NCBI GenBank assembly: GCA_005778225.1
Contig: SXPC01000280.1
Location: forward strand, 1-64,000
Source: Planctomyces sp.
GTDB taxonomy: Bacteria > Planctomycetota > Planctomycetia > Planctomycetales > Planctomycetaceae
Length of the DNA: 64,000 nucleotides
Direction: 5' to 3'
Shown here: piece by piece, positions 24,661 through 28,922 of the stretch
How the letters are laid out: each line of letters starts with the position of its first letter
How positions within the stretch are numbered: position 1 is the first letter of the stretch
Notes under the pieces: model-generated
What the model was told of the DNA's origin: nothing
Databases searched by the model: none
The model's input: the letters and a program-made list of their open reading frames with translations, nothing else
Position numbers and translations under genes: made by a program

Positions 24661-24866
24661 ATGAGAAATATTGTCACGATCTACGAATCCGACTTCGACA
24701 CGCTGACCACCCTCTGGGAAGCGTCGGTGCGGGCGACGCATTTGTTTTTGTCCGAGGAGGATATTTTGGCTTTGCGGCCGTTGGTGCGGGGGACGTATTT
24801 GAAGGGGTGGAGCTGCGAGTTTATCAGGATCACGCAGGGGTGATTCTGGAGGGTTGTCGGTGGTAG
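24661..24866 (+). pseudogene. Truncated, frameshifted GNAT acetyltransferase remnant
   Basis: IYESDFDTLTTLWEASVRATHLFLSEEDILALRPLVRGTYLKG continues in another frame from base 24807 as VELRVYQDHAGVILEGCRW*, typical of the N-terminus of YjaB-like GNATs; the acetyl-CoA half is missing. Confidence 0.7.
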
Positions 24867-24874
24867 GAGAGTCG

Positions 24875-25306
24875 ATGGGGATGTCAAAAGAGATCTTTCC
24901 GCCGGTTGAAGTGAAGAAGGGGCTGCAAGCGGCCCAGATGATGGGATTCTGTGGATTCGGGGCCGCCGCGGCTGTTGGGGGAGCGCTGGGAGACATACGA
25001 CTGGTCATCCTCATTGGGTTTGTATCCGCGCTTTTGGGGTGGGTTCGCTTTGCTTCGCCTTCACGACCTGCCACTGCGTGGAAACTTGTCTTCGTCTATG
25101 TTCTGATGACAGCTGTTTTTGTTTTTGCCTGGGAAATGATCTTTCCGCCACGCTTCAAGATGTCTGTGTGGTCGATGCAAGAGTTTTTTTATCCAGCCTA
25201 TCTGTGCTGGATCTTTTTGGTTCTAGCACCATTGCCGTGGTTGATGTTGAGACCGCCGGTGTCGCGGATGGAGTTGCAGGGTGATTCGGCATCGAATGCG
25301 GATTGA
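24875..25306 (+). CDS. Hypothetical membrane protein
   Basis: Several TM segments (GFCGFGAAAAVGGALGDIRLVILIGFVSALLGWV, LVFVYVLMTAVFVFAW). ATG at 24875 or 24881. Confidence 0.65.
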   Translation: MGMSKEIFPPVEVKKGLQAAQMMGFCGFGAAAAVGGALGDIRLVILIGFVSALLGWVRFASPSRPATAWKLVFVYVLMTAVFVFAWEMIFPPRFKMSVWSMQEFFYPAYLCWIFLVLAPLPWLMLRPPVSRMELQGDSASNAD

Positions 25307-25445: not shown

Positions 25446-26540
25446 TTATCGCACTTGCATTTCCGGGTAGTAGCGTTCCTGCAGCATCGTGAGCATGCCG
25501 AGTTCTTCTAATTCCAGGAGGGTTTGGTCGAGTTCTTCCAAGTGGGGCCAGGCGGGGCGGGTGGCGATGGCGTCGTATTGGTAGGTGAAGGGGTCGGCGA
25601 CGCCGAAGTCGGTTTTGGCGTTGTGTTTTTCGAGGATGTGAGTAAGGGCGTGGGTGTCGAAGACGACGGCCTGGAAGTTCTTAGATTTCAAGCCAGTGAC
25701 GAGGTCGTCGATGTGGGCGACGGTGCGGATCTTTTCGATGCCGTTGCGTTGGAGGAGGCCGACGGAGGAGCTGTAGGCTTTGGTGCCGACTTTCATGCCT
25801 TGGAGTTGGTCGAGGCGTGAGTACATCGGGACGCGGTCGGCGGCGCGGTGGAAACGGACCCAGCTGTCGGCGACAGTGGTAACCATGAGCCAGCCGATGG
25901 CGACGGTGACGAGGCCGAGGATGCGGAGTTCTTTGGCGTTGGGGTCGACGCGGTCGTTTTTGATGTCGGTGGGGGCGCCGCCGAGCATGACCTGGAGGAC
26001 GCGGAGGCTGGCGTCCCAGGTGTGTTCCCACCAGGGTTCACCTTCTTTGTGTTCCGTGAAGCGGGCCAAGATGGCGATGATCACGGTGATGGCGACCATG
26101 CCGAAGACGGGCGGGAGGATGATCAGGCAGCGTTCCCACAGCGGGACGGGGTCGACGAGCGGCGACATGACGGAGTAACCCGTCTTGAGGTACGGGTAGG
26201 AGAAGTCGATCCGCTGTTCGCGTTCGAGAGTAGGTGTGAGGCCAGCGAGGCCGACGTCGGCTTCGCCTTTTTCGAGGGTTTGGATGAGCGTTTCGAGGTC
26301 GGGGACCTCGGTGAATTCGCATTCCCAATTGCGCCGGTGGGCGACGGCGCGGAGGGCGTCGACTTCGAGGCCGGCATAACTGCCGTCGGGTTGGATGATG
26401 ACGACCTGGTCGTAAGCATGAACGACGACGCGGACTTTGATGGGAGCGGGATGGGGCTGGCTGAATGCGGTGTTCTGGGAAACGAGAATAGCGAACGCGG
26501 CGATCAGGAGGTGAAGCGGAGATCGGGTGCGATTCGTCAT
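25446..26540 (-). CDS. Prokaryotic ionotropic glutamate receptor-like protein (split periplasmic binding domain with inserted TM-pore-TM)
   Basis: Signal peptide; binding lobe (GSYAGLEVDALRAVAHRR...ADVGLAGLTPTLEREQRIDFSYPYLKTGYSVM); TM WERCLIILPPVFGMVAITVIIAILARF; pore-like segment; TM LGLVTVAIGWLMVTTVADSWVRF; second lobe to the C-terminus. Confidence 0.78.
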   Translation of the reverse strand: MTNRTRSPLHLLIAAFAILVSQNTAFSQPHPAPIKVRVVVHAYDQVVIIQPDGSYAGLEVDALRAVAHRRNWECEFTEVPDLETLIQTLEKGEADVGLAGLTPTLEREQRIDFSYPYLKTGYSVMSPLVDPVPLWERCLIILPPVFGMVAITVIIAILARFTEHKEGEPWWEHTWDASLRVLQVMLGGAPTDIKNDRVDPNAKELRILGLVTVAIGWLMVTTVADSWVRFHRAADRVPMYSRLDQLQGMKVGTKAYSSSVGLLQRNGIEKIRTVAHIDDLVTGLKSKNFQAVVFDTHALTHILEKHNAKTDFGVADPFTYQYDAIATRPAWPHLEELDQTLLELEELGMLTMLQERYYPEMQVR

Positions 26541-26748
26541 TCGGGGCGGGCTTTCGTCCTCGTGGCGAAGGGTTGATTGGGTTGAGAAATCAACCACGCA
26601 GGATCATAGGCATGAGTTCTCAATTATTGCTAATGGGAAATTGCCCGTTTGAGAAATCGTGTGTATGAAAGTTGAAACTATCTCCTCAGACCCGTCGCCG
26701 TTACGATCGGTGTGAGAGGGTTGAGTTATTGTGAGGAGAAAAGGTTCA

Positions 26749-28568: not shown

Positions 28569-28922
28569 ATGGACAAGCAATACCGTCTCACGCCAGACCA
28601 GATGAAGTCGTTGATTGAAAGTACGCAGGGGTGTTTGGCGACGGATCGGATTACCGTTGATGGGGAGCTCGTTGGCTATATGCAGCGGGAAGAGCCGCTG
28701 AGTGAAAATGACTCGGGGTGGCGGTTCTTCGCGGGGGATGAGTCGGATCTGTATTTGCAGCTGCCGCAGAACCATGGGTTTCATACGCTGAATGCGATTT
28801 GCAATTACGATCCTGCGATCATTCCCTTCCTGGAATATGAAACGCCGTGTGCGTTTCTCCGGGCGGAGGAAGGGGATGAGTTTGACGAGGTCATGTATGA
28901 TCCAAATGGCGATGACGAGTAA
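28569..28922 (+). CDS. DUF2185 (Imm33-like) domain protein
   Basis: GCLATDRITVDGELVGYMQREEPLSENDSGWRFFAGDESDLYL...LNAICNYDPAIIPFLE. Confidence 0.75.
   Translation: MDKQYRLTPDQMKSLIESTQGCLATDRITVDGELVGYMQREEPLSENDSGWRFFAGDESDLYLQLPQNHGFHTLNAICNYDPAIIPFLEYETPCAFLRAEEGDEFDEVMYDPNGDDE

Follow-up and report, generated by a model that had tools for sequence, protein, structure and literature searches.

Does a planctomycete gene with the layout of a GluR0-type glutamate receptor, but without the K+ selectivity filter, still encode an ion channel? The gene occupies positions 25446..26540 on the minus strand of the window, by which we mean the whole 64,000-nucleotide stretch of Planctomyces sp. DNA that was analysed (contig SXPC01000280.1). 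An earlier note on this DNA had read the product as an ionotropic glutamate receptor (iGluR)-like protein whose pore selectivity may be new or eukaryote-like, or whose conduction may be lost. Synechocystis GluR0 is a K+-selective prokaryotic iGluR, and how iGluRs came to exchange a K+ pore for a non-selective cation pore is a standing question in their evolution. On balance, we think it somewhat probable that the window protein is a GluR0-descended ligand-binding membrane receptor whose pore is not of the K+ type and is probably non-conducting.

The receptor gene and its domain layout

The open reading frame is intact from the ATG at 26540 to the stop at 25446 (364 amino acids), and a GTG at 26597 offers an alternative upstream start that would add 19 residues. 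The codon index of this frame is 0.81, against 0.52 to 0.67 for the other five frames, and is comparable to that of the four neighbouring genes used for training (0.72 to 0.80); GC3 is 0.80, which is typical of the genome. Opposite the gene lies an antisense open frame (25848-26576, plus strand, 242 amino acids), which is probably a by-product of high GC3, since its codon index (0.70) is below that of the receptor frame. Adjoining the receptor gene is a membrane-like ORF of 150 amino acids (24854-25306, plus strand) with a weak codon signal and no Pfam match. Elsewhere in the window (28569-28922, plus strand) lies the gene for a small protein that carries an Imm33 immunity-protein domain (8.3e-30); the flanking genes that were examined included no recognised toxin partner.

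The Pfam family SBP_bac_3 (PF00497) matches residues 43-359 (E 7.8e-18), and nearly the whole of its 132-position profile is spread over 317 residues, so that a long insert must lie inside the binding domain; this insert comprises about 110 residues and splits the domain at the GluR0 insertion site. Lobe 1 also matches PF10613 (Lig_chan-Glu_bd, the ligand part of glutamate receptors; E 7e-8), and the solved structures matched by sequence include the ligand-binding domains (LBDs) of 2pyy, a bacterial iGluR homologue (7.8e-12), and of Synechocystis GluR0, 1ii5 (4.7e-6). Hydropathy analysis revealed an N-terminal signal segment and, within the binding domain, two strong membrane segments at about residues 138-160 and 204-226.

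Structure prediction with AlphaFold took as input alignment A3, consisting of the window protein and 56 relatives (57 sequences), with loci from genome searches left out. The resulting model (mean pLDDT 87, pTM 0.75) places helices at residues 134-163 (M1), 174-185 (P-helix) and 203-234 (M2) between lobes at pLDDT of about 95; the loop that surrounds and follows the pore helix is modelled with less certainty (pLDDT 55-79), including its course beyond residue 186. As A3 is made of GluR0-type proteins, the model is biased toward the GluR0 fold; the single-sequence fold was poor overall (mean pLDDT 43), with the transmembrane region as its best part, and the three helices of that fold (134-161, 170-185 and 202-236) agree with those of the A3 model. 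The S1-M1-P-M2-S2 order with signal peptide described in the earlier note was seen by Pfam, hydropathy and AlphaFold, and the membrane segments were modelled as M1-P-M2, as its reading implied. The features of the gene are as follows.

25446..26540 (-), gene for a 364-amino-acid protein of GluR0 topology (ORF, Pfam, codon usage, AlphaFold model)
26460..26540 (-), predicted signal peptide, residues ~1-27, cleavage near AFS/Q (sequence; hydropathy peak at residue 9; model helix 8-21)
26145..26441 (-), ligand-binding lobe 1 (S1), residues ~34-132 (SBP_bac_3, Lig_chan-Glu_bd; pLDDT ~95)
26220..26222 (-), Arg107, invariant in A3 (57/57); ligand role from Ger et al. 2010
26052..26141 (-), M1 transmembrane helix, residues 134-163, ending in the invariant Glu163 (hydropathy, both models, alignment)
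25986..26021 (-), short pore-helix-like segment, residues 174-185, TWDASLRVLQVM (both models)
25950..25967 (-), DIKNDR, residues 192-197, at the TVGYGD position (ungapped family alignment)
25839..25934 (-), M2 transmembrane helix, residues 203-234, with VADSWVRFHR instead of the gate motif FTAxxTSxLT (model, alignment)
25464..25823 (-), ligand-binding lobe 2 (S2), residues ~240-359 (Pfam, model)
25656..25658 (-), Asp295, invariant in A3; ligand role from Ger et al. 2010

In a Foldseek comparison, all 50 of the 50 listed PDB matches were AMPA, NMDA or delta receptors (best E 3.2e-19), and these matches span about 370 columns, covering the LBD and transmembrane domain (TMD) together; the overall superposition was loose (TM-score ~0.5, rmsd >10), as expected of a two-domain chain. 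Arg107 and Asp295 are invariant across A3, and the conserved Arg of S1 contacts the ligand alpha-carboxylate and the Asp of S2 the alpha-amino group (Ger et al. 2010, PMC2950845). Conservation of these residues supports the amino-acid-type binding site that the earlier note envisaged, and we infer that the window protein binds such a ligand through them. Both lobes and the ligand Arg/Asp are shared with the family-3 amino-acid solute-binding proteins (SBPs; SBP_bac_3), which are soluble or lipid anchored and have no M1-P-M2 insert, unlike the window protein. Genes for ABC-transporter SBPs usually lie near permease and ATPase genes; the receptor gene has ilvD, an unknown ORF and a sulfatase gene as neighbours, and a plain ABC-transporter SBP was rejected as a candidate on the grounds of both the neighbours and the transmembrane insert.

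The pore region

The loop quoted in the earlier note, EPWWEHTWDASLRVLQVMLGGAPTDIKND, corresponds to residues 168-196 and, as had been stated, contains no TVGYGD; neither TVGYG nor GYG occurs. The WW and GG motifs singled out in the same note are present but misleading: in the ungapped alignment, the WW lines up with the FGG of the M1-P linker and is not the pore-helix WW, and the GG sits in the P-helix/filter approach. A gapped MAFFT alignment that put this WW on the pore-helix WW was discarded as misplaced, the ungapped register being better supported.

The pore-helix WW, the K+ filter (TVGYGD replaced by DIKNDR) and the FTAxxTSxLT gate are all lost, and the region resembling SYTANLAAF is a stretch with charged residues instead. 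The Lig_chan family PF00060 matches 56 of the 57 members of A3, filter-less ones included, but gives no match to the window protein up to E 10; PF07885 matches 38 members and, again, not the window protein. With pore-helix WW, whole filter and M2 gate motif gone, the protein is therefore no K+ channel, and a K+ channel with a hidden filter was rejected, the filter position reading DIKNDR. Nor did the suggestion of a eukaryote-like pore survive, in view of the missing PF00060 match and gate motif; the eukaryotic iGluRs (AMPA, NMDA and delta) share with the window protein the structural similarity over LBD and TMD and the PF10613 match, but the window protein is 15-19% identical to them and has no M4, N-terminal domain or SYTANLAAF.

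What has been retained is the spacing of the module. The ungapped alignment holds 120 residues in register, from 22 residues before Glu163 to lobe 2, with no gap, and the distance of 43 from Glu163 to Arg206 is the commonest value in the family (51 of 99 measured relatives); the 44-residue M1-M2 loop is common to the window protein and the TVGYGD relatives aligned here. Register 0 was clearly the best in the ungapped test, with a score p of 0.0024 against hydropathy-class-preserving shuffles, a value that is somewhat optimistic because two matched positions are anchors chosen by the analyst. The loop alone agrees with the consensus at 4 of 44 positions (p 0.15), and the residues that it has in common with the family are just Glu, Thr, Pro and Arg. 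When the pore region was scored by itself with a gapped HMM, it reached about 6 bits, as did 10% of hydropathy-class shuffles; since this is near chance, the case for pore homology rests on spacing and register.

It is conceivable, though in our view unlikely, that the protein functions as a ligand-gated cation channel whose pore is new and not of the K+ type, and that it is a strongly diverged relative of the Group 2 proteins of Ger and coworkers. Loop length, P-helix and M2 spacing have all been retained without change, the gene is intact and well coded, and many filter-less relatives persist with an otherwise intact pore module, so that a change of filter is compatible with persistence. Those relatives, however, keep the PF00060 match, and most have the pore-helix WW and an FTAxxTSxLT-like gate, whereas the window protein has lost all three; moreover, its filter-equivalent DIKNDR mixes acidic and basic charges. 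Judged from the sequence, this orphan GluR0 descendant probably has a pore that is non-selective or, with greater likelihood, dead, and loss of conduction, one of the options that had been listed at the outset, is the reading that we would adopt.

In the ligand-binding receptor that we propose, the signal peptide would export lobe 1, M1 and M2 would hold the protein in the membrane, the re-entrant-type loop between them would face the cytoplasm, and lobe 2 would complete a periplasmic clamshell in which an amino-acid-type ligand would be held by Arg107 and Asp295. The pore module has kept its length and predicted helices, and closure around the ligand would presumably no longer open a selective pore. 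The window protein may therefore be a membrane sensor that binds ligand or a binding protein tethered to the membrane; at most, it would be a channel of weak or different selectivity.

Relatives and descent

The best relatives of the window protein are 25-28% identical to it and all of GluR0 type; its nearest full-length homologues are thus channel-type proteins and not the ordinary SBPs that would have told against the earlier note. No close ortholog turned up among 170 genomes of the order, nor among the roughly 1,020 examined from the phylum as a whole, and a contig scan with the window protein as the single query found no relative. Its own genome, which is 87% complete, yielded no second GluR0-type gene and no paired TVGYGD subunit; the other pore matches there were a Kv-like channel, a K+-channel fragment at a contig edge and non-SBP proteins.

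In a free tree built from the lobes only, a split with support 91/92 separates the GluR0-type proteins from 19 plain SBPs, and the window protein falls with the former, but an AU test of the lobes did not reject its grouping with the plain SBPs (p 0.55), and lobe phylogeny was dropped as proof of GluR0 descent. Given this result and the long branch of the window protein (2.39 changes per site in the lobes), the case for GluR0 descent rests on insertion site, spacing and register and not on phylogeny. The protein might instead be an ordinary family-3 SBP into which an unrelated transmembrane hairpin was independently inserted, with no GluR0 descent, and both the AU result and the near-chance similarity of the pore-only HMM are compatible with such an origin. 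We regard it as improbable, for it would have to account for the exact insertion site, 120 residues without an indel, a loop of the commonest length and one register that stands out as the best, and for closest full-length relatives that are all of GluR0 type, in addition to the preference of the free lobe tree. The long branch, the lack of an ortholog in the order and the lost pore signature could also be taken as marks of a decaying gene, recently freed from selection and en route to a pseudogene; this we consider very improbable indeed, as 364 codons are open with genome-typical codon usage and GC3, and the ligand residues and lobes are preserved.

The descended receptor that we prefer can be set beside proteins described by Ger et al. 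2010 (PMC2950845), who screened prokaryotic proteins for the S1-TM-TM-S2 arrangement and distinguished 12 prokaryotic iGluRs with a K+ filter (Group 1) from 10 with pore regions not recognisably like those of any channel of known selectivity (Group 2). The window protein resembles Synechocystis GluR0 and Group 1 in its signal peptide, S1-M1-P-M2-S2 order and ligand Arg and Asp, but differs in having no TVGYGD, pore-helix WW or conserved gate motif and no Pfam Ion_trans_2 or Lig_chan match. By description it is placed beside Group 2, with which it shares topology, the conserved Arg and Asp and a pore without a recognisable filter. Since Group 2 exists, a bacterial iGluR without a filter is a known kind; what is unusual in the window protein is that the whole pore signature is lost. 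No paper combining GluR0 with Planctomycetes was found in the literature searched.

Filter diversity and paired planctomycete receptors

A scan of named genomes identified 65 loci in planctomycetes, rhizobia, Bradyrhizobium, other Pseudomonadota, Campylobacterota and others. The filter types among the relatives include TVGYGD, LGHKG/LGNKG, TGGCENK/TGGCDDK, TQASTGHR, TQAGAAQN and TVGNVEM, and mapping them onto a lobe-only tree gives at least six changes of filter state when the window protein is not counted. The 18 distinct LGHKG-type subunits, whose filter is two residues shorter than TVGYGD, are planctomycete wherever the organism is named, and in 14 of the 18 cases a TVGYGD subunit directly adjoins the LGHKG-type subunit on the same strand (L002, L007, L008, L009, L018, L021, L025, L031, L056, L058, L060, L062, L064 and L109), with frames that overlap or stand 15-102 bases apart. 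From this gene order, the two subunits may be co-expressed and form heteromeric receptors in which one filter is of the K+ type and the other is changed. The LGHKG subunits (among them L002, L007, L009, L055 of Blastopirellula and L063 of Botrimarina) have class, topology and loss of the K+ filter in common with the window protein, but their WW and gate are intact and most are paired, whereas the window protein is unpaired. The pairing is a cleaner, more testable and more interesting lead than the window gene itself.

Bacterial receptors of one topology that have repeatedly changed filter, some of them paired with a K+ subunit, provide a natural test of the roles of filter and gate, and the window protein stands at the far end of the series, where the clamshell persists and the pore signature is gone. 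More speculatively, and with little expectation that the whole scheme will hold, planctomycetes may repeatedly have kept iGluR-type proteins once the K+ filter was lost, most as heteromers of TVGYGD and LGHKG subunits, and the orphan may represent a further step in which a protein of iGluR fold reports bound ligand and has no canonical pore, much like the non-ionotropic role that has been suggested for delta receptors.

Other changed filters were also encountered. Rhizobium, Sinorhizobium, Bradyrhizobium and Afipia carry GluR0-type receptors with the filters TQASTGHR, TQAGAAQN and TQRVVGG and an otherwise intact pore module (non-K+ loci L079, L080, L083-L086, L092, L096-L098, L100, L104, L105 and L115). 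TGGCENK/TGGCDDK replaces TVGYGD in ten planctomycete loci (L016, L017, L019, L020, L026, L028, L029, L032, L035 and L036), and several genomes of one genome family (f15) among these planctomycetes have more than one match. Strongly altered pores (VAKSGE, TGKTSYKGK) occur in the GluR0-type proteins of L043, L044, L050, L052 and L054, in which the M2 gate-like sequence is kept; L044, L052 and L054 group together in the lobe tree.
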